15,045 nucleotides of DNA from Planctomycetota bacterium (lineage in GTDB: Bacteria; Planctomycetota; UBA1135; UBA2386): contig JAGQRA010000812.1 of assembly GCA_020425885.1 (NCBI GenBank), positions 1 through 15,045 of the forward strand. The letters are read 5' to 3'. The position numbers and the translations under genes are program-made. The notes under the pieces were generated by a model. The model was given only the letters and a program-made list of their open reading frames with translations. It was not told the origin of the DNA and did not search any database. Below, in pieces: positions 2,873-15,045 of the stretch; the first letter of the stretch is position 1, and every line of letters begins with the position of its first letter.

Positions 2873-3106
2873 ATGGAGAGAACAGTAATCGACTGCAAGG
2901 GCCTCAAGTGCCCATTGCCGATCGTCCAGCTGGCCCTGGCCATCAAGGATCTGCCGGCGGGATCGGAGGTCTGCATCGAGGCAACGGATCCGGCGTTCCT
3001 GCCCGACCTGCGCGCCTGGGCCGAGGTCTCCGGCAACACCGTGGCCGCCACCGAAGAGGGCGAAGTCAAGCGCACCACGATCCGCAAGAAGGCGGGGGGC
3101 CAGTGA
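2873..3106 (+). CDS. tusA: TusA-family sulfurtransferase (sulfur carrier)
   Basis: This 77-residue cytosolic sulfur carrier accepts sulfane sulfur as a persulfide on Cys13 and hands it to partner proteins. The family signature is clear: DCKGLKCPLPIV (7-18), with the CPxP motif at 13-16 and the upstream conserved D and GL. The length matches the two-layer alpha/beta TusA fold. An additional Cys8 sits five residues before the active Cys. The start is ATG 2873; the preceding GCTTTC gives no strong Shine-Dalgarno. The stop TGA overlaps the GTG start of dsrE2 (GTGA), so translation is coupled. TusA next to DsrE2 is a known pairing in sulfur-trafficking loci, but here no hdr, rhodanese or tRNA-thiolation gene accompanies it. 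Confidence 0.9.
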   Translation: MERTVIDCKGLKCPLPIVQLALAIKDLPAGSEVCIEATDPAFLPDLRAWAEVSGNTVAATEEGEVKRTTIRKKAGGQ

Positions 3107-3627
3107 CCGCAACCTCGACGATGCCCTGTGAGTGCCCGGCGCCGACGGCCCGAGCCGCCAAGGCGGACGCGACCTTCATCCTCTTCAGCGGTGACATGGA
3201 CCGTGCCCTGGCGGCCTTCACGTTGGCCAATACCGCCGCCGCGGCCGGCATGAAGACGACGCTGTTCTTCACCTTCTGGGGCATCACGGCGGTGCGCGGT
3301 GCCAAGCGGAAGGAACCAGGAGGATTCATGGATCGCCTGTTCGGCGCGATGCTGCCGCGCGGCGCGGGCAAGTTGCCGACGTCGAGGATGAACTTCCTCG
3401 GCCTCGGGCCGCGGCTGTTCCGCTGGCGCATGGCCAAGAAGCGCCAGCCCAGCCTCGAGCTGCTGTTGGATCAGGCCAGGCTGCTCGGCGTTCGCCTGCT
3501 CGCCTGCGAGGCATCGGCAGACATGCTCGGCTTCGGCGCCGGCGACCTCGTCGAGGGCGTCGAGATCGCCGGCGCCATGAGCTGCCTGCGCGACGCTGCC
3601 GCTTCCGAGGTGTCCCTCTTCATCTGA
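3103..3627 (+). CDS. dsrE2: DsrE2-type (DsrE/DsrF/DrsH-like) sulfur-trafficking protein
   Basis: This 174-residue protein belongs to the DsrE2 group, persulfide-carrying partners of TusA that are often membrane-associated. Matching segments are FILFSGDMDRALAAFTLANT (25-44), the hydrophobic MKTTLFFTFWG (50-60), the basic middle with FMDRLFGAMLPRGAGKL (75-91), and LLACEASADMLG (132-143). Cys135 in that last segment is the conserved reactive Cys. Further Cys are at 9, 11 and 161. I chose GTG 3103 because it overlaps the tusA stop by four bases; an ATG at 3121 would drop six residues. The stop TGA shares its A with the next ATG (TGATG), so all three small genes appear co-translated. The role is inferred as sulfur relay; the physiological sulfur donor is unknown. 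Confidence 0.88.
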   Translation: MTATSTMPCECPAPTARAAKADATFILFSGDMDRALAAFTLANTAAAAGMKTTLFFTFWGITAVRGAKRKEPGGFMDRLFGAMLPRGAGKLPTSRMNFLGLGPRLFRWRMAKKRQPSLELLLDQARLLGVRLLACEASADMLGFGAGDLVEGVEIAGAMSCLRDAAASEVSLFI

Positions 3628-4007
3628 TGGAAACGCTCCAGAAGGACCGCCTGCAGGTGCTGCTCAGCGTCGGCACCGACGACCCCATGCGCGCCGAGCT
3701 GGCGTTGCAGACCGCGCTCGCGGCCGCGTCGTGCGGCGTGTCCGTCACGCTGTTCCTGACCCAGGCCGGCAGCGTGTGGGGATGTCAGGGTGTCCTGCCA
3801 GGCAGGGCCGGCGAGCTGCAGGGCATGGTCGATGTCCTGCTCTCACTCGACGTCGCGATCGAGTGCTGCGCGTCCTGTGCGGAGCGGACCTGCAACGACT
3901 CGGTGGTCGCGGGCGAATGGGGCTCACTGCGCAAAGGCGTCGTGCCGACCGGCCTCGTCACCTTCGCATCACGTTCGGCACAGGGTTGTCCTACCGTGAC
4001 CTTCTGA
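3627..4007 (+). CDS. Cys-rich DsrE-like protein
   Basis: This 126-residue protein has a DsrE-like alpha/beta pattern: strand LQVLLSVGTDD (9-19), helix MRAELALQTALAAASCG (21-37), strand VSVTLFLTQAG (38-48). VDVLLSLDVAIECCASCAER (68-87) then corresponds to the DsrE strand ending in the reactive CxxCxxR-type loop. It carries seven Cys (36, 53, 80, 81, 84, 89, 121), four clustered at 80-89. That would suit persulfide or polysulfide transfer, a disulfide switch, or metal binding. No signal peptide or membrane span is seen. It starts on the last base of the dsrE2 stop, and the kinase gene starts 17 nt after its stop. The family assignment is by fold pattern and context, weaker than for dsrE2. Its place between dsrE2 and a sensorless kinase makes it the best candidate adaptor. 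Confidence 0.72.
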   Translation: METLQKDRLQVLLSVGTDDPMRAELALQTALAAASCGVSVTLFLTQAGSVWGCQGVLPGRAGELQGMVDVLLSLDVAIECCASCAERTCNDSVVAGEWGSLRKGVVPTGLVTFASRSAQGCPTVTF

Positions 4008-4012
4008 CCGAC

Positions 4013-4017
4013 GAGGA
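4013..4017 (+). promoter_or_regulatory. Shine-Dalgarno GAGGA that fixes a TTG start
   Basis: GAGGA at 4013-4017 lies seven bases before TTG 4025-4027. It is the best ribosome binding site in the region, and no in-frame ATG exists between the DsrE stop and the first conserved part of the kinase. It therefore supports a TTG start for the histidine kinase rather than the longer frame running back into the DsrE gene. Confidence 0.7.
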
Positions 4018-4024
4018 CCATCCC

Positions 4025-5692
4025 TTGCCATCCGACGCCAGTTCGATCGAGCAGGAACTCGCGCTGCTGCGCCGCGAGAACGAGCGGCTTCGCGATGAGG
4101 CGCGGAGCGTGGCCAGCGCCAACGTCAACGCGGCGCAGCAGATGGTCGAGATGAGCATGGCGCGGCAGCGCGAGCTCGAGGAGCAGAACCGGCGGATCGA
4201 GGCGGCGCTCGCCATCGCCGAGCAGGCCTCGGTGCAGAAGACGATGTTCCTGGCCAACATCAGCCACGAGCTGCGGACGCCGTTGAACGGCATCATCGGC
4301 ATGGCCTCGGTGCTGCTCGAATCCGAGCGTTCCGGCGAACGCCGCGAGGACATCGAGATGCTGCTGCGTTCGGGCGAGATGCTGCTCGAGATCGTCAACG
4401 ACATCCTCGACTTCTCCAAGATCGAGGCCGATCACTGCGATCTCGAACGCGAGCCGTTCGATCTCTGGAAGATGAGCGAGGACCTCACGGGGCTCCTGTA
4501 CGCCGGCAATCGCGGCAAGGACTTCGAGGTGCGCCTCGAGATCGATCCGATGTTGCCGCGGACGATCATCGGCGACCAGCTGCGGCTGCGTCAGGTGCTG
4601 ATGAACCTCGCCGGCAATGCGACCAAGTTCACCGACCGCGGCGAGGTCGTGATCCGCATGCGGGCGATGGGCCCCGTGCTGCACGTCGAGGTGACCGATA
4701 CCGGTTGCGGCCTGGACAGCAAGTCGATCGGGCGCCTGTTCGAGCCGTTCACCCAGGTCGACAACTCAGCTGCGCGGCGCAAGGGCGGAACCGGGCTCGG
4801 GCTCGCGATCAGCCGTCGGCTGATCCGCAAGATGGGCGGGGACATCCTCGTCGAGAGCGAACTCGGGCGCGGCAGCCGCTTCTGGTTCGTGATGCCGCTC
4901 GAGGTTCCCGTGGCGAAGGCGCCACCGCTCGAGGCTCGGTTCGGTGTCGCGGTGCTGCACACCGACGACGGCAATGCGCGGCGGACGGTCGAGTCGCACC
5001 TGCGCGCGATCGGTATCGATGTCCGCGATGCTGCGGAATCACCGATGCCGCCGGTGAACGGTCCGGCACTCTGGCTGCTGGACACCGCGGCAACCGGTGT
5101 CGCTCCGGAACGATGGTCGGCGATGGTCGGCCAGGATGATCGGGTCGTGCTGCTCGGCAGCTCGGATCCCGATCAGACCTTGCCGTGGCGCGACGCCTAC
5201 CCCGCCGCCCGCGTCCTGCGCCGGCCGCTGTTGCCAACCGCCCTGCTGCAGCTGTGCACCGGTGAGCCGGAGCGCGGGGCAGCGAGTGCTGACCGGGCCG
5301 TGGTCGCCGAGGTGGCGGCGACCCGAGTGCTGCTGGTCGAGGACAACCCGATCAACGCCCGCGTCGCCAGCTCGCTGCTGCGGAGCATGGGGTGCTCGGT
5401 CGACGAGGCCGCGAGTGGGGTCGAAGCCCTCACCGCCGTCGGGCGATGCGCCTACGACGTGATCCTGATGGACTGCCAGATGCCCGAGATGGATGGCTAC
5501 GAGGCGGCGGCCAGGATCCGGGAGCTGGAGCGGGACACCGGGCACCGCGCGCGCATCGTGGCGCTGACGGCGCACGCGATGGCCGAGGACCGCCACCGCT
5601 GCTTCAGCCTCGGCATGGACGACTACCTCACCAAGCCCGTGAGCCGCGCCGCGCTGGCGGCGGCGGTCGGGTCGGCGCGTTCACCGAGCTGA
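4025..5692 (+). CDS. Cytosolic hybrid histidine kinase without sensor domain (HisKA-HATPase-pseudoREC-REC)
   Basis: This 555-residue kinase starts at TTG 4025. Residues 5-70 form a Glu/Arg-rich coiled coil; no PAS, GAF or membrane span is visible. HisKA follows with phospho-His81 in ISHELRTP, then HATPase with N-box N198 (LAGNATKF), G1 DTGCGL (225-230), FEPFTQ (239-244) and G2 GGTGLGL (254-260). Residues 306-411 resemble a degenerate receiver: DD at 314-315 and D353 are present, but the conserved Lys is Arg (RP at 400-401). The last receiver (434-550) is complete: E439/D440, phospho-acceptor D483 (LMDCQMPEMDG), T515 and K537. It probably autophosphorylates and passes phosphate to D483, then to an HPt protein not in the window. 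Its position right after tusA-dsrE2-dsrE suggests sulfur status as input (inference). Its stop lies 21 bp from the convergent kelch gene's stop. Confidence 0.9.
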   Translation: MPSDASSIEQELALLRRENERLRDEARSVASANVNAAQQMVEMSMARQRELEEQNRRIEAALAIAEQASVQKTMFLANISHELRTPLNGIIGMASVLLESERSGERREDIEMLLRSGEMLLEIVNDILDFSKIEADHCDLEREPFDLWKMSEDLTGLLYAGNRGKDFEVRLEIDPMLPRTIIGDQLRLRQVLMNLAGNATKFTDRGEVVIRMRAMGPVLHVEVTDTGCGLDSKSIGRLFEPFTQVDNSAARRKGGTGLGLAISRRLIRKMGGDILVESELGRGSRFWFVMPLEVPVAKAPPLEARFGVAVLHTDDGNARRTVESHLRAIGIDVRDAAESPMPPVNGPALWLLDTAATGVAPERWSAMVGQDDRVVLLGSSDPDQTLPWRDAYPAARVLRRPLLPTALLQLCTGEPERGAASADRAVVAEVAATRVLLVEDNPINARVASSLLRSMGCSVDEAASGVEALTAVGRCAYDVILMDCQMPEMDGYEAAARIRELERDTGHRARIVALTAHAMAEDRHRCFSLGMDDYLTKPVSRAALAAAVGSARSPS

Positions 5693-7161: not shown

Positions 7162-8783
7162 CTACGGCGCCTGATCCATGAGTCGCTTCATCATGGCGAG
7201 CAGCGATGCCCGGTCGATCGGCTTGGTGGCGAAAGCCGAACAGCCCGACTCCAGCGCGCGGGCTCGGACGTCATCGGTCGCACCCGCGGTCAGTGCGATG
7301 ACCGGGGTGCGGATGTTGCGGGCCCGCATCTCCATGGTGGCTTCGAACCCGTCCATGACCGGCATCTGCATGTCCATCAGGACCAGGTCGTAGAGCTCGC
7401 CGTCCTGGATCCCTTGTTCCAGGGCCACGAGGGCCTTCGCGCCGTTGTCGACCACGGTCACGCTGGCGCCGGCATGGCTGACGATGTGGGTCACCAGGCG
7501 TTGGTTCATCGCGGTGTCTTCCGCGAGGAGGACACGGCCCGAGAGGCGTGTCTGCGGGGGCGAGGCGCCATCGTGCGGTACAGTCCCGGCGTCGATGCGT
7601 AGTTGCCGATGCGCTGCCTCGGTAACCAGGGGGATGCCCTCCAGCATCCCGGTGGCGACCGAGAGGTGGAACGTGCTGCCGCGACCGGGCTCGCTGGAAG
7701 CGCTGAGCTGACCGCCGAGCGCCCTGGCCAGGCTGCGGCTGATCGACAGGCCGAGTCCCGTGCCACCGAACATCCGGTTCGTCGATGCATCGGCCTGGGC
7801 GAAGGGCTCGAAGATGCGCGTCAGGGCCTCGGCGGTCATGCCGACGCCGGTATCCGAGACCTCACAACTGAGCAGGCTGACGCCGTCCTCGTTCCTCGCC
7901 ATCGACAGTCGGAGCTCCACGCTGCCAGTCGAAGTGAACTTGATCGCGTTGCCGATGAGGTTGATCAGGATCTGCCGGTAGCGGGTCGGGTCGGTGGCGA
8001 TCGACTCGGCCAATGGAGTGTCGTAGACGGCACGCAGGGTGAGGCCCTTCCGATCGGCCTGCACCCGCATCGCGCGCAAGACATCGGCGACCAGTTCGTA
8101 CGGAGACACGCGGCAGATCTCGACCTGGAGATCGCCCGACCCGACCTTGGCGAAGTCGAGGATGTCGTTGACCAGCCGCAGAAGATGTTGGCCGTTGGCG
8201 AGGACGACGCCGATCATCTCCACGTCATCCGGGTCGGCCAACCTCTCGCGCAGCAGCTCGGTGAAGCCGATCACGGCGGTCATCGGAGTCCTCAGCTCAT
8301 GGCTGGCGTTGGCGAAGAACGCGTCCTTGGCCTGGGTCGCCTCCTCGGCGCGGAGGAGGGCCTGCTGCAACGCGTCGTTGGTCGCCGTCCTCTGCTCCAC
8401 CAGCTCCTCCATGGAGCAGAGCCGCTCGAAGACCTTCACCTTGGCCATCAGCTCGGCGTGGACGAAGGGCTTCGTCACGTAGTCGTCCGCGCCGGCCTCG
8501 TAGCCCTTCAGGCAGTCGGTGACCATCGCCTTGGCCGAGACCAGGATGATCTTGATCGAGTGACCGTTCGGCATCGCCCGTAGCCGCCGGCAGGTCTCGT
8601 AGCCGTCCATCCCGGGCATCATCACGTCGAGCAGGATGATGTCCGGTCGCTCGCGGTCGACCACCTCGATGGCCTCCTCGCCCGACGCGGCGGTGGTGAC
8701 CGGGTAGGTGTCGGCGAAGATCTCGGTGATGATCTCCAGGTTCGTGGCGTCGTCGTCGACGGCCAGCAATCGCGTCGGGGAGA

Positions 8784-8787
<4 letters not shown>
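7162..8787 (-). CDS. Hybrid histidine kinase REC-HisKA-HATPase-REC
   Basis: This 541-residue soluble kinase has receivers at both ends. REC1 (about 5-122) has D11/D12, phospho-acceptor D54 (LLDVMMPGMDG) and K106. A coiled linker (125-155) leads to HisKA with H163 in SHELRTP. HATPase has N280 (NLIGNAIKF), G1 DTGVGM (312-317), FEPFAQ (326-331) and G2 GGTGLGL (341-347). REC2 (about 418-538) has E423/D424, D472 (LMDMQMPVMDG), T500 and K522. All catalytic residues look intact. The N-terminal receiver probably takes phosphate from, or is regulated by, the transmembrane kinase encoded immediately upstream, whose TGA overlaps this ATG by four bases. GAGGAG (8796-8801) is a good Shine-Dalgarno. The output is unknown: no HPt or DNA-binding regulator is nearby. 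Confidence 0.93.
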
Positions 8788-10352
<1,565 letters not shown>

Positions 10353-10356
10353 CGTT

Positions 10357-11268
10357 CTAGTGGAACACCTGGTCGGCGTGGGTCGTGACGGACGGCGGCA
10401 GGTCGATCGAGAGTCGGGCCGCCACGGTCAGGTTGATCGCGATCATGAAGACGGGAGGTTCGGGGCGGCGCGAGTCGACCTTCGCACCTTCGAGGACGCG
10501 GTGGGTCAAGGCGCCGGCCTGGGCACCGTGGGCCGTCGGGTCGATGCCGACGCCGAGCAGCGAGCCGGAACGCACGAAGGACGTCGAGAAGCCGAACACC
10601 GGGGTCCGCGAGCGCAGCGATTTCACCAGCAGCGAGCGGACGGACTTGCTGTTGTAGACGGCCGAGTCAGGAGTGGTCCAGACCATGTCGATGTGCCGGG
10701 ACAGCAGCTCGTCGAGGGCATCGCTCACCGTCGCGTGCTCACCGAGGGCGACGGCTTCGATGGTCCACCCCTCTGGCAGGGAGGCGCGAGCCTGCTCCAT
10801 CAGGGCGAGGCTGGTCGCGTTGTCCGATTGGTAGAGGAGGCCCAGGCGCCGGCATCCGGGCATGGCCTTGCCGATCAGGGCAAACTGCTCGGGAATCGGG
10901 ACCGCCATGTCGACGCCATGGATCGACTTCTTGCCGGTCAGCCGGGCGCCATCCGGATCGGCGATCATGCAGTAGGTGAGCTTGACGTCGGCGGGAAGGC
11001 GCGGTGTCAGCCAGGTGGCTGCCGCCGTCCCGATGGCGACGACCGCCTTCGGCCTGGCCGCGCCCACGAGTTCCTCCCAGCTCACCTTCGCCGGGGCCTG
11101 CAGCGTGAGCATCTTCGATTGTCGGCCATGCTTCGACAGCTCGGCCGCCACGGCTTCGGCGGCGGCGACATATGGGGTCGCGGAGCCGCTTCGTACGATG
11201 ACGACGTCCTGTGCCGCGACAGGGCTCAGGAGCGAAGGCAGTGCCAGGAGAAGCAGCGGGCGAAGCAC
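10357..11268 (-). CDS. Periplasmic ABC-type substrate-binding protein (PF04392-like), no transporter partners
   Basis: This 303-residue exported binding protein has a signal peptide at 1-19 (hydrophobic LLLLALPSLL, cleavage after VAA). The mature part alternates beta/alpha as in the PF04392 ABC_sub_bind group. Segments include VVAIGTAAATWL (76-87), GVDMAVPIPEQFALIGKAMPGCRRLGLLYQ (118-147), LLSRHIDMVWTTPDSAVYNS (188-207) and TPVFGFSTSFVRSGSLLGVGID (222-243). Family members bind small ligands, in some cases aromatic amino acids, but no ligand is predicted here. The start is GTG 11268; no clear Shine-Dalgarno is seen. No permease or ATPase gene is in the window. Instead it lies 34 nt after the TonB receptor gene and 4 nt before a transmembrane kinase, which points to a sensing role, possibly docking on the kinase's periplasmic domain (inference). 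Confidence 0.87.
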   Translation of the reverse strand: MLRPLLLLALPSLLSPVAAQDVVIVRSGSATPYVAAAEAVAAELSKHGRQSKMLTLQAPAKVSWEELVGAARPKAVVAIGTAAATWLTPRLPADVKLTYCMIADPDGARLTGKKSIHGVDMAVPIPEQFALIGKAMPGCRRLGLLYQSDNATSLALMEQARASLPEGWTIEAVALGEHATVSDALDELLSRHIDMVWTTPDSAVYNSKSVRSLLVKSLRSRTPVFGFSTSFVRSGSLLGVGIDPTAHGAQAGALTHRVLEGAKVDSRRPEPPVFMIAINLTVAARLSIDLPPSVTTHADQVFH

Positions 11269-11302
11269 GGTCGTTGGCGGCAGCGAGTCGGCTCTCGGGT
11301 GA

Positions 11303-13321
11303 TCAGAAGTGCAGCGTGCCAGCGATGAAGAACGTCGTTCCCGGGGTCTCGTGGGTCGAGATCACCGGTCCCGACTGATCGAGAATGTCGCTGACTCCGA
11401 GCGAGACATCGCCGTGGTCGAACGACCTCGTAACGGTCAGGTCCAGGCGATGGATGTCGCCGTATGTCTTCGGGGTGGGGAAGTTGTTCACGTACGTTTC
11501 CCCGGTGTACTTGTAGTTCAGGTTGAGGGTCCAATCCTCGGCCACGGTCGTACGCGCGTTCGCGCCCGCCTTGTGGCGTGCCGGCTCGGCGGCCCGGATC
11601 GACTGACCGACTTGATCCATGCGGAAGTCCTCGTAGCCGTACCACATGGACATCTTCAGGTCGTCGCTGCTCCAGGTGCCTTCGAACTCGCCGCCGGCGC
11701 CGTTCGCACCCGCCAAGTTCTGGCTCTGCACCGGCACCGGGAACCCCGGCAGGCTGACGTAGCCGATCAGGTTGTCGTAGTCGTGATAGAAGCCGTCGAG
11801 CCGGAATGACAGGCTCCGGGAATAACGGAGCGTGTGGCCGGCCTCGTAGGAGGTGAGGCGTTCGTTCTCGAGGTCGGCGTTGGATGCGAACAGGAATATC
11901 GGCGTGCCGATCGGGTCCGAGAACACCGCCGACACCTGTCCGAGGCCCGAGAGCGGCGCTCGGAACGCCCGCGCCACGCTTAGGCGGCTGACGTGACGAT
12001 GTGAATCGTCGAACGAGTAGAGCAGGCTGGATCGGCCCGACCAGTCGAACTGCGTCTCGGAGTAGTAGTCACCCCGGAGCTGCGTCTCGAGGGTCACGGC
12101 GTCACTGAAGGCGAACCGGTCGACGGCGAACAGACCGGCCCAGTACTCGTCTCTGGGCCCGGACGCGAACGTGACCTGGTTGGGGAGGTAGGCGTCGGTG
12201 TCGAGGTGCTGCCAGCGCAGATTGCCGCCGACGCTGAGCTCGTGATTCGAGGTCAGCGTGAAGTCGAGTTGCCCTTCCAGGTCGGTCTCGTTGGCGTCGA
12301 AGACGCTGATCGATCTCCGGGTCGTATCCTGGTAGTTGTTGAAGAGCTGCAGGTAGCCACGGGTGGAGTCGCTCAGGGTCTCGTCGATTCGGACGAAGGC
12401 GCGCAGCGTCTCACGGCTGCCATCCGCGAGCGTCGGCAGCCCGAAGAGCGCGAAGTCTCCCTCCTCGCGGTTGGAGTAGCCGACTCCCGCCGACAGCCTC
12501 GCGGTCTCCGATATCCGGTGGGCCACAGACGTGTCGATCACGGCACCGCGGGCGAAGTCCTTCGAGCTGAAGCTCGACGAGTCCAGGGCGTCCGAAGACG
12601 ACGCGTAGTCGACGTATCCGGCGGAGACCCTCCAGCTGGTGGCGCCGTCGGTGCCTCCCCAGCGCAGCTGGGTCTCGGAATCACCGAACGTGTTGATCGT
12701 GCTGCGCAGCAGCACCCCCGAGGTGTCCTCCGGCTTCTTGGTGATGATGTTGATGACGCCGTTGAACGCGTTGGCACCCCAGGCGGCGCCGCCAGGACCG
12801 CGCACGACCTCGATCCGCTCGATGTCCTCGACGAGCAGAGGCAGGCGCAGGAACTCGGGACCGCCGAACATCGGACTGCTGGCGTTGCGGCCGTCGACCA
12901 GGGCGATCGTCCGATCCGATGTGACGTCGTGCAGGCCGCGGATGCCGACCGAATAGCGGTTGCGGTCGGCGCGCAGCATGTCGATTCCCGGCAGGAACTG
13001 GAGCAGCTCCGGGATGGTGGTCAGGCCCGAGTAGTGGATGTCCTCGGCCGTGAGCACGCTGACGGGGACCGGCGCGTAGTTGATCGGTCGCGCGTTGCGG
13101 GCGGCGGTGACGACGATCGGCAGTTCCTCGAACATCAACAGGTCGTCAGCGGTCTCCTGTTGGTCGGCTGCATCCGGCTGTTGCGTTGCCGCCTGACAGC
13201 GCAGCTCGGGCAGCATCAGCCAGGCGGACGTCATCAGGGCGACCCCGACGGCGGTTCGGCACCGTGGGGCGGATCCGACGATTCGCCGGGCAGACTTCCA
13301 TGATTCCATCCGCATGGGCAT
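11303..13321 (-). CDS. TonB-dependent outer-membrane receptor
   Basis: This 672-residue outer-membrane receptor has a long positively charged N-terminus and a hydrophobic stretch (24-38), with probable cleavage near AAT (44-46). A TonB-box-like segment EELPIVVTA (65-73) follows. The plug domain (about 78-195) contains SVGIRGLHD (124-132), LVDGRN (141-146), IERIEVVRGPGGAAWGANAFNGVINIIT (167-194) and the like. A beta-barrel of about 470 residues ends in Phe (GTLHF), the assembly signal for outer-membrane barrels. Such receptors import siderophores, cobalamin, thiamine, sugars or other ligands with TonB energy; the substrate is not deducible and no riboswitch was found upstream. It is the first gene of a five-gene minus-strand run. 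ATGs at 13321, 13315 and 13309 are all possible starts. An insertion sequence lies 151 bp upstream in the same orientation. Confidence 0.9.
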   Translation of the reverse strand: MPMRMESWKSARRIVGSAPRCRTAVGVALMTSAWLMLPELRCQAATQQPDAADQQETADDLLMFEELPIVVTAARNARPINYAPVPVSVLTAEDIHYSGLTTIPELLQFLPGIDMLRADRNRYSVGIRGLHDVTSDRTIALVDGRNASSPMFGGPEFLRLPLLVEDIERIEVVRGPGGAAWGANAFNGVINIITKKPEDTSGVLLRSTINTFGDSETQLRWGGTDGATSWRVSAGYVDYASSSDALDSSSFSSKDFARGAVIDTSVAHRISETARLSAGVGYSNREEGDFALFGLPTLADGSRETLRAFVRIDETLSDSTRGYLQLFNNYQDTTRRSISVFDANETDLEGQLDFTLTSNHELSVGGNLRWQHLDTDAYLPNQVTFASGPRDEYWAGLFAVDRFAFSDAVTLETQLRGDYYSETQFDWSGRSSLLYSFDDSHRHVSRLSVARAFRAPLSGLGQVSAVFSDPIGTPIFLFASNADLENERLTSYEAGHTLRYSRSLSFRLDGFYHDYDNLIGYVSLPGFPVPVQSQNLAGANGAGGEFEGTWSSDDLKMSMWYGYEDFRMDQVGQSIRAAEPARHKAGANARTTVAEDWTLNLNYKYTGETYVNNFPTPKTYGDIHRLDLTVTRSFDHGDVSLGVSDILDQSGPVISTHETPGTTFFIAGTLHF

Positions 13322-13468: not shown

Positions 13469-13472
13469 CTAG
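13469..13472. repeat. CTAG flanking the IS, candidate target-site duplication (other copy 15041-15044)
   Basis: CTAG occurs directly outside both inverted repeats. A 4-bp duplication at a palindromic target would give this picture, but because CTAG is self-complementary it cannot be told apart from the outer bases of the inverted repeats using this copy alone. Confidence 0.5.
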
Positions 13473-13488
13473 GAGTCTGCGTCACGGG
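13473..13488 (+). repeat. Left terminal inverted repeat of the insertion sequence
   Basis: GAGTCTGCGTCACGGG is the inverse of 15025-15040 with one mismatch (T against C at the tenth base). With the flanking CTAG included, the match is 19 of 20. Confidence 0.85.
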
Positions 13489-13637
13489 TAGCCACGCGCG
13501 CGAGAATCCGACTTCTGGAATTGCGGGGGGCTACGTGGCGGCGGGTTGAGCGCCGACGCCTTGCTGGAGCGCTCGCGATGGTTGGCGACTGCTCGAGGCC
13601 GCAGGCGCCGGCATGAGGCTTCGACGACCTTCCTCGT

Positions 13638-14954
13638 TCACACCGCCACCCCCTTCGCTGCCATCCGCCGCAGGTTCAGCGCCAGGCAGATCAGGCTCCA
13701 CTCGCCTGCGACCTTGCGCAAACCGCGAAGACTGAAGGCGCGGAAGCCGAGCACCTGCTTCACCCACCCGAAGACAGGTTCGACGATGCCCTTCCGCTGC
13801 TTGTAGCGCGCGCGACCGCGCTTGGTCCGCAGCTTCTTCAGCATCGCCTGGCTGCATGGCGAGTCATCACTCGGAGGACGCACGGCCTTGCCCTCGCGAC
13901 CGAGCGAGACGTAGCCATCGATACCGAGCTCTTCGAGCAACTGAAGATCGCGCTCGTTCTTGTAGCCGGTGTCGGCGAGCACGCGCTTCGGGATCGCGTC
14001 AGTGCTCTCGAAGGCAGCGTTGACGGCCGGCATCAGCAGGCCCATGTCTTTCGGGTTCTGGCTCACGGTCGCGGCGACGACGATCTGCGCCTTCGCATCG
14101 ACGGCGACCTGCGCGTTGTAGCTCTGCTGAAAGACCTTGCCAGCCAGCGGCATGATGCGGCTGTCCGGATCCGTGAAGTTCTCCTGATCGCGCGGCTGCG
14201 GCAGCACGCGCTCGCTCTTGTCGGGATCGGCTGCGTGCTCGCCCTCCTTCTCCGCTGCCTGCTTCGCGGCAGCTTCGGCAGCCTTGCGCTCTTCGAGACG
14301 CTTCTTCGCCGCTTGGATCGTCTGCAGCCGCGTCTTGCGGCTGGCCAGCTCCGCTGGCAGCTCGTCGCCACGGAAGTCCGGGCCGAAGGACTGATCGTCG
14401 ATGTCGTCCTGGTCGCGTGCCGCCTGCGTCAGCTTGCGGATCTCGCTGCGCAGCCGCTTCTCCTCCATGAGCATGCGGTCGTAGCTCATTGCCTTGTGCT
14501 TGCTCGCGTTCGCCTTCACCTTGCTGCCGTCGATCGCGACAGTGCCCATCTTCACGAGCCCGGCCTCCTTCGCGAGCTGCACCACCTGGACGAACAGGCG
14601 CTGGAACTCGTCGAGATTCTCTTCGCGGAATCGGCAGATCGTGCGGTGACTCGGCGACAGGCCGGCGGCGATCACGCGGAAGGCGACGCTGTCCTCGACC
14701 TGCGCAGCGATCTTGCGGGAGGCGAAAGTGCCCGTGCAGTACGCGTAGATCAGGAGCGCCAGCATCACGCGCGGCGGGTAGGCCTGCTCGCCCTTGCCGC
14801 CGCTGCGGTACTTCGCCAGCAGGCGATCGATGTCGAGCTGCTCGACCGCGTCGATCACGAACCAGGCAAGGTGGCTGTCCGGCAGCCAGTCGCTCGGTGA
14901 CGGCGGCAGCAGGAAACCCTGACGGCGATCCTCTTGCTTGCGGAACGAGCCCAT
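13638..14954 (-). CDS. IS1182-family DDE transposase
   Basis: This 438-residue transposase cuts and rejoins the element's ends. The N-terminal DUF772-like part has DWLPDSHLAWFVIDAVEQLD (22-41) and PPRVMLALLIYAYCTGTFASRKI (60-82). The DDE catalytic triad is D142 (VAIDGSKVKANAS), D328 (LADTGYKNE) and E392 (GIVEPVFGWVKQVLGFR). A charged, Lys/Glu/Ala-rich insert (about 155-245) separates the first two Asp, as is usual in IS1182 and related IS5-like groups. Length and motifs are complete with no frameshift. The start is ATG 14954, with weak GGGG just upstream. Its transcription points toward the TonB receptor operon, so read-through could affect that operon. Confidence 0.93.
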   Translation of the reverse strand: MGSFRKQEDRRQGFLLPPSPSDWLPDSHLAWFVIDAVEQLDIDRLLAKYRSGGKGEQAYPPRVMLALLIYAYCTGTFASRKIAAQVEDSVAFRVIAAGLSPSHRTICRFREENLDEFQRLFVQVVQLAKEAGLVKMGTVAIDGSKVKANASKHKAMSYDRMLMEEKRLRSEIRKLTQAARDQDDIDDQSFGPDFRGDELPAELASRKTRLQTIQAAKKRLEERKAAEAAAKQAAEKEGEHAADPDKSERVLPQPRDQENFTDPDSRIMPLAGKVFQQSYNAQVAVDAKAQIVVAATVSQNPKDMGLLMPAVNAAFESTDAIPKRVLADTGYKNERDLQLLEELGIDGYVSLGREGKAVRPPSDDSPCSQAMLKKLRTKRGRARYKQRKGIVEPVFGWVKQVLGFRAFSLRGLRKVAGEWSLICLALNLRRMAAKGVAV

Positions 14955-15024
14955 GCCCCACTTACGATAGGGTGCTGGGCCGCAGGGTTTTCCTTCGCCG
15001 GAATCTTCAGCCTCGGGGCATCAT

Positions 15025-15040
15025 CCCGTGGCGCAGACTC
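15025..15040 (-). repeat. Right terminal inverted repeat of the insertion sequence
   Basis: CCCGTGGCGCAGACTC on the plus strand reads GAGTCTGCGCCACGGG in reverse complement, matching the left end except at one base. The CTAG at 15041-15044 follows, and the window ends one base later. Confidence 0.85.
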
Positions 15041-15045
15041 CTAGC

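Follow-up and report, generated by a model that had tools for sequence, protein, structure and literature searches.

What does a histidine kinase respond to when it carries no sensor domain of its own and its gene directly follows three genes for sulfur-handling proteins? This question is raised by a four-gene locus, tusA-dsrE2-dsrE-kinase, at positions 2873 to 5692 of a 15,045-nucleotide stretch of planctomycete DNA (contig JAGQRA010000812.1 of assembly GCA_020425885.1), which was analyzed whole and is called the window below. Carriers of the TusA and DsrE type have known roles in tRNA thiolation and sulfur oxidation. We propose that TusA, DsrE2, and DsrE here serve together in the cytosol as a sulfur-relay sensor for a partner enzyme on which they act in trans, a reading to which we assign a probability of about 60%. 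A preliminary description, made from the sequence alone, had proposed a sulfane-sulfur or redox sensing system in which persulfidated DsrE proteins are the input of the kinase; the linkage, the window kinase with no recognizable sensor domain, and a helix largely specific to the locus favor the sensing part of that idea, whereas the nearest studied relatives show a chemistry other than persulfidation and some loci do without dsrE.

The linkage of the four genes is real, and they constitute a tight operon (Table 1). Overlaps of 4 nt (tusA/dsrE2, with dsrE2 starting at the GTG at 3103) and 1 nt (dsrE2/dsrE) are followed by 17 nt between the dsrE stop and the kinase TTG at 4025; these coordinates, and the families assigned by Pfam, agree with the operon as first described. 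The Shine-Dalgarno site of the kinase gene, previously called strong, is present as a GAGG about 8 nt upstream of the TTG and is acceptable rather than exceptional, and the TTG start itself is backed by relatives, which have ATG at the equivalent position (GTG or ATG in locus L027). All four genes are under purifying selection, with nonsynonymous divergence (dN) of 0.24 to 0.38 and synonymous divergence (dS) of 0.71 to 1.10 between the window and the nearest locus, L001.

Table 1. Position and character of features in the window
Feature	Position	Strand	Description	Basis
tusA	2873..3106	+	77-aa sulfur carrier, CPxP motif with Cys13	PF01206, 58.6 bits
dsrE2	3103..3627	+	174 aa, DsrE2 family, invariant Cys135, GTG start	PF13686, 133.5 bits
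dsrE	3627..4007	+	126 aa, DsrE fold, C81-x2-C84-x4-C89	PF02635, 26.1 bits
Hybrid histidine kinase gene	4025..5692	+	555 aa, TTG start	N-terminal helix, HisKA, HATPase_c, unassigned middle segment, REC (Pfam, AlphaFold2)
Conserved kinase N-terminal helix, VAxANxxAAxxxVEL	4067..4234	+	Proposed signal receiver	Alignments A7 and A10, genome searches, held-out test
Second signaling row	7162-13321	-	TonB-dependent receptor, ABC-type substrate-binding protein (PF04392), HAMP kinase, REC-HisKA-HATPase-REC hybrid; closely spaced	
IS1182-family element	13469-15044		Transposase gene 13638-14954 (-); window ends at its edge	

The same gene order is kept elsewhere among planctomycetes. A scan of genome contigs with four DsrE sequences returned one locus, L001 (Planctomycetota HKST-UBA81), with the complete operon. 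In the class of that genome (G001), DsrE matches occur in 14 of 154 genomes, 11 of which hold the four genes in order (L001 and L020 to L029, with the L025 contig ending within the kinase gene and L029 encoding a kinase of another kind, without a HisKA match); the other three (G056, G137, and G141, at E values of 5e-6 to 3e-4) are without it. A phylum sample of 392 genomes yielded 66 DsrE matches, and the eight best (at least 71 bits) all represent this system: four had already been found, and the four further ones comprise complete operons in G333 and G392, a divergent form in G216 with tusA-dsrE2 on one strand and dsrE-kinase on the other, and the sulfur genes with another output, a PAS-GGDEF-EAL protein, in G461. 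All 12 loci looked at in the range of 48 to 53 bits have tusA-dsrE with neither dsrE2 nor an adjoining kinase match, and from the remaining 46 matches G321 was looked at; by handle, G333, G392, G216, G321, G461, and G478 lie outside the 154-genome set from the class of G001. The contiguous operon is therefore known from 13 genomes and the window, and in all 14 loci the kinase starts 1 to 26 nt behind dsrE. That tusA, dsrE2, and the kinase gene stay together, which the preliminary description had proposed to check among homologues, is borne out by this order in 13 other genomes and in distinct neighborhoods. These number at most 12 among the 14 loci, since shared flanking open reading frames are confined to two pairs of loci, L024 with L025 and L062 with L063, except for two weak matches (26 to 30 percent identity); the L028 flanks, shorter than 1 kb, are uninformative, and L025 has none downstream. 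With 55 HisKA genes in 7.7 Mb, a same-strand HisKA gene would begin by chance within 30 nt after a given stop at a rate of about 1e-4 per genome. The sole named close relative of the window DsrE is planctomycete, and DsrE relatives include 128-aa proteins named Myxococcota and Kiritimatiellota. A plasmid-borne cassette was considered, and a tblastn search of plasmids with the window DsrE found no match; a distant DsrE as the query matched three places in Paracoccus plasmids.

The best-surviving alternative, which we nonetheless regard as unlikely, is that the sulfur proteins handle or detoxify sulfur as an ordinary module, with which the kinase is merely co-expressed while sensing something else through another partner. 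It gains from the occurrence of tusA-dsrE2 without a kinase in G117, from the 12 tusA-dsrE pairs described above, and from Bacillus licheniformis, in which the yrk cluster combines DsrE and TusA homologues with the two-component system NreBC and a sulfur signal (PMC9918477): there NreB, which contains a PAS domain, is a sulfide sensor for which the carriers have not been proposed as input, and sqr and pdo are present. The PAS domain of an NreBC-type kinase is absent from the window kinase by Pfam. Co-expression alone also fits poorly with the neighborhoods, across which no other gene is conserved beside the operon, with the kinase helix, which is largely specific to this locus, and with the loci where a GGDEF-EAL enzyme takes the place of the kinase next to these sulfur genes; the last two points are developed below.

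The window kinase contains HisKA, HATPase_c, and one REC domain and nothing else that Pfam recognizes, and the earlier statement that it is without PAS, GAF, and HAMP is confirmed to that extent. Five other kinases of contiguous operons that were scanned (L020, L026, L029, L062, and L063) have no Pfam sensor domain either; the view that no known sensor domain occupies the N terminus holds for these and for the window and fails at the variant locus G140, whose kinase has a GAF domain. AlphaFold2 predicts one continuous helix over residues 5 to 100 of the window kinase, running into HisKA; this model (6 sequences; mean predicted local distance difference test score [pLDDT] of 68, about 60 to 87 in the helix) was used for secondary structure only, and residues 296 to 424 are not reliably modeled in it. 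A hidden sensor domain was considered and was found by neither Pfam nor the model.

Within residues 15 to 70 of this helix lies the pattern VAxANxxAAxxxVEL, and a profile of it (A7, 18 rows, 17 of them from the loci of counted relatives) gave 13 strong matches in the 154 genomes; 12 adjoin dsrE2, the thirteenth (G124) is at the edge of a contig, and two marginal matches (E values of 0.008 and 0.010) are unlinked to dsrE2. Four of these genomes contain 53 to 60 HisKA matches each, against a single helix match apiece. The 392-genome sample gave 13 matches at E < 1e-4, of which nine are beside an intact dsrE2, one is beside a remnant (G478), one is on a contig edge (G324), and two (G492 and G504) are in genomes without dsrE2 anywhere; three weaker matches are unlinked. 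When a profile built from ten kinases of the class was run against a background consisting of the fetched loci, it recovered eight held-out kinases at E < 0.01, six of them beside dsrE2 (L063, L062, L159, L026, L029, and, at the remnant, L162) and two on contig edges (L145 and L160), with three weaker matches (E values of 0.03 to 0.1) unlinked. In the genomes searched, these matches suggest that the helix is largely specific to this locus. A second pattern, AQADALVxSA..xELE, occurs in the GGDEF-EAL partners and in the kinases of G216 and G140; a single helix common to kinases and GGDEF-EAL partners was considered, as the two look alike by eye, and is not supported by profile comparison (hhalign probability of 10 percent), so two types are distinguished. 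The second type is present in 6 of 198 genomes of the class of G461, three times beside dsrE2, the sixth genome (G432) lying outside the dsrE2 check. When the helix region of the G333 kinase was used as a protein query, it returned 6 proteins, three of which lie on contigs that match those of the G333, G321, and G392 loci in length. The kinases of G140 (L127, 7191-9395) and G478 (L162, 6184-8457) share, between helix and HisKA, a stretch whose cysteines follow a similar pattern, CExxxxxxxCFYxxDVxxKFP, and which Pfam assigns to GAF in the former and to nothing in the latter.

The three sulfur proteins retain their characteristic cysteines. TusA exceeds the PF01206 cut-off of 28.6 bits, with the CPxP motif present and C13, P14, and P16 kept in 12 of 12 aligned loci, and reaches 28.9 bits under the NCBIfam equivalog NF001423 (cut-off, 78); judged by these profiles, it is a TusA-family protein and not the NF001423 equivalog. 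DsrE2, similarly, is far above the PF13686 cut-off of 25 bits and below that of the NCBIfam sulfur carrier DsrE2, NF047629 (55.8 bits versus 210); it matches PDB 3pnx (E value of 1.3e-40 with a 12-row profile), and C135 is kept in 12 of 12 aligned loci. DsrE passes PF02635 (cut-off, 22.7 bits) and has a confident AlphaFold2 model (pLDDT of 91 and predicted template modeling score of 0.85, from an alignment of 53 rows, namely 52 of 106 relatives plus P0007), whose nearest solved structures are YchN, 3mc3, TusD, and DsrE. The best PDB match by profile is 3mc3, which PMC4175335 describes as the structure of a DsrE3A. C81 and C84 are present in 14 of 14 aligned sequences and C89 is present in 13; C81 and C89, which occur together in 13 of 14, correspond to the Cys-X7-Cys of DsrE3A and align to the cysteines of 3mc3. 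C84 is an extra cysteine that creates an additional CxxC.

Redox or metal sensing by DsrE through this CxxCx4C motif, in place of sulfur carriage, is a further alternative that we consider quite improbable. In the profile alignment, 3mc3 lacks the second cysteine of the CxxC, yet C81 and C84 are found in 53 of 53 wider relatives, as would suit a DsrE that reports thiol-disulfide state or metal to the kinase. A pure sensor of that kind, however, would not need the TusA CPxP and the DsrE2 cysteine that are kept in all 12 loci, and neither G140 nor G321 showed a dsrE next to the kinase.

The closest studied counterpart, dsrE3A-dsrE2B-tusA of Metallosphaera cuprina, encodes the same three kinds of protein, with a Cys-X7-Cys whose first cysteine is at the active-site position; that module is linked (PMC4175335) to Hdr-like and dihydrolipoamide dehydrogenase genes and to sulfur oxidation, whereas here the partner is a kinase or a GGDEF-EAL protein and the additional CxxC is present. 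The 13 window genes scanned include no dihydrolipoamide dehydrogenase gene, and we therefore call the protein DsrE3-like rather than DsrE3A. The same 13 genes include no Dsr or Hdr gene (Hdr was not searched genome-wide), and since that defining link is missing, the window dsrE2 is not classed as an Hdr-linked DsrE2. Membership in a Sox or Dsr sulfur-oxidation pathway was also considered and is not supported: of 20 genomes that have the system or one of its variants, and whose completeness is not stated, 0 reached the SoxB or DsrA cut-off, although no control genome did so either (14 controls for DsrA, where the sensitivity is thus unproven). In M. cuprina, DsrE3A and TusA react with tetrathionate and not with glutathione persulfide (GSSH) or polysulfide, and they bind each other with a dissociation constant of 0.1 nM, whereas DsrE2B neither reacts nor binds to DsrE3A or TusA (PMC4175335). 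Because of this reactivity, tetrathionate or a thiosulfonate would be as likely a signal as a persulfide, and the persulfidation that had been proposed as the input chemistry is not what the nearest studied relatives show, namely, thiosulfonate formation with tetrathionate.

The partner of the sulfur proteins is not always a kinase. With dsrE2 as the query, 21 of the 154 genomes match, 13 of them above 190 bits, and these 13 correspond to the 11 operons together with G140 and G117; the remaining eight are at or below 47 bits, and the two looked at (G089 and G095) are without this gene set. DsrE matches in the class of G461 occur in 26 of 198 genomes, and eight of these were looked at. Three (G461, G562, and G625) carry a tusA-dsrE pair that converges on dsrE2 and a PAS-GGDEF-EAL gene; in the other five, the surroundings of the DsrE gene gave neither a dsrE2 nor a kinase match. 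The output of the system can thus differ, with a PAS-GGDEF-EAL gene instead of a kinase gene beside the same sulfur genes, and the kinase of L064 has an Hpt domain of its own. The preliminary description had counted on the kinase being constant wherever the sulfur genes persist. Every three-gene locus examined does have a signaling gene, but the gene is PAS-GGDEF-EAL in the three genomes just named, and the two-gene locus of G117, tusA-dsrE2 without dsrE, has no kinase. That the flow runs the other way, with the kinase or its REC controlling the activity of the sulfur-relay proteins, is very improbable: it would suit the finding that the window genes scanned include no HPt and no DNA-binding or other output regulator to take the REC phosphoryl group, but the GGDEF-EAL enzyme in place of the kinase and the Hpt-bearing L064 kinase fit an output better.

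Under the sulfur-relay reading, sulfane sulfur, or thiosulfonate derived from tetrathionate, would load Cys13 of TusA and the CxxCx4C cysteines of DsrE; the loaded or unloaded DsrE/DsrE2 complex would then bind the N-terminal helix of the partner and shift its output, that is, kinase autophosphorylation or, with a PAS-GGDEF-EAL partner, turnover of cyclic di-GMP (c-di-GMP). Every linked locus but G478 has DsrE2 and TusA, which may make DsrE2 the docking protein, with DsrE in a loading or modulating role. A sensor role for the sulfur-relay proteins is likely, given the linkage, the lack of a recognizable sensor domain in the window kinase, the kept cysteines, the helix largely specific to the locus, and the alternative output; from these we infer the contact of DsrE or DsrE2 with the kinase and the activity that follows, including the ligand, the sign of regulation, and the step after REC.

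Several observations weigh against this reading. At the loci, dsrE was not found in G140, where the order is dsrE2-tusA-kinase and the kinase has its GAF domain, and is not beside the kinase of the tusA-dsrE2-kinase locus in G321, so that the DsrE-like protein is not indispensable; G117 lacks both kinase and dsrE; in G478 (L162) the dsrE2 next to the kinase is decayed, and the 13 kb retrieved contain neither tusA nor dsrE; and PAS domains are present in the GGDEF-EAL partners themselves. In the helix searches, most of the linked A7 matches (11 of the 12 from the class and 7 of the 9 from the sample) had themselves served as profile rows, which leaves a small independent part; G124 and G324, on contig edges, have no dsrE2 match in the rest of their assemblies and were counted neither way; and in some genomes the number of candidates scored was capped (for example, 42 of 66 in G001), as it was in three of the four genomes with 53 to 60 HisKA matches (42 of 47 to 66 helix candidates). 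Homology of the two helix types is not supported (hhalign, 10 percent), the profile of the GGDEF-EAL helix alone recovers two linked (L064 and L127) and two unlinked (L161 and L163) held-out proteins, and G492 and G504 have the second type with no dsrE2 in the genome. Finally, the inertness of M. cuprina DsrE2B, by analogy, speaks against DsrE2 as the sulfur acceptor.

A sensor in trans nevertheless appears to be the most economical account, and it has a precedent in H-NOX and NosP, stand-alone sensors that act in trans on histidine kinases or on c-di-GMP enzymes such as diguanylate cyclases, depending on the species (PMC8738867); those are heme sensors of nitric oxide, whereas the present system consists of DsrE-fold proteins and TusA. 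For SoxT1B-SoxR signaling in Hyphomicrobium, TusA has been proposed as a possible carrier of the sulfur signal to a regulator; the regulators there are repressors rather than kinases, and a YeeE-like transporter takes part (PMC11582611). No description of a DsrE/TusA-kinase pairing of this form was found in the literature searched, which mostly excludes subscription papers and was available in part. Whether DsrE/TusA carriers are a general plug-in sensory module, a sulfur-relay counterpart of H-NOX and NosP, we regard as an even bet; once loaded with sulfur, they would attach to a short N-terminal helix and thereby switch kinases in some planctomycetes and c-di-GMP enzymes in others. If the sulfur-relay sensor is real, sulfur carriers become signaling inputs, and how cells read internal sulfane sulfur or tetrathionate becomes directly testable; the four-gene system is small and amenable to testing in vitro.

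Some further loci deserve mention. The G478 dsrE2, at about 5800-6045 of L162, is a decayed remnant, and the adjoining kinase frame is open. In G625, a further kinase-profile gene (L120, 4814-6121, minus strand) lies beside tusA-dsrE on the opposite strand, in addition to the GGDEF-EAL partner. At L066 to L077 lies a tusA-dsrE pair that is common in planctomycetes; in most cases another TusA-profile match comes after it, and no kinase adjoins. Similar matches occur on contig C573 of G001. The PAS-GGDEF-EAL protein with the second helix pattern in G492 (L163, 5749-8172), a genome without dsrE2, lies about 5 kb from a gene that presumably encodes a hydrogenase small subunit.

Elsewhere in the window, within the second signaling row (Table 1), the PF04392 binding protein may be the sensor of the kinase. 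The IS1182-family element is bounded by 20-nt inverted repeats that are 95 percent complementary (13469-13488 and 15025-15044).

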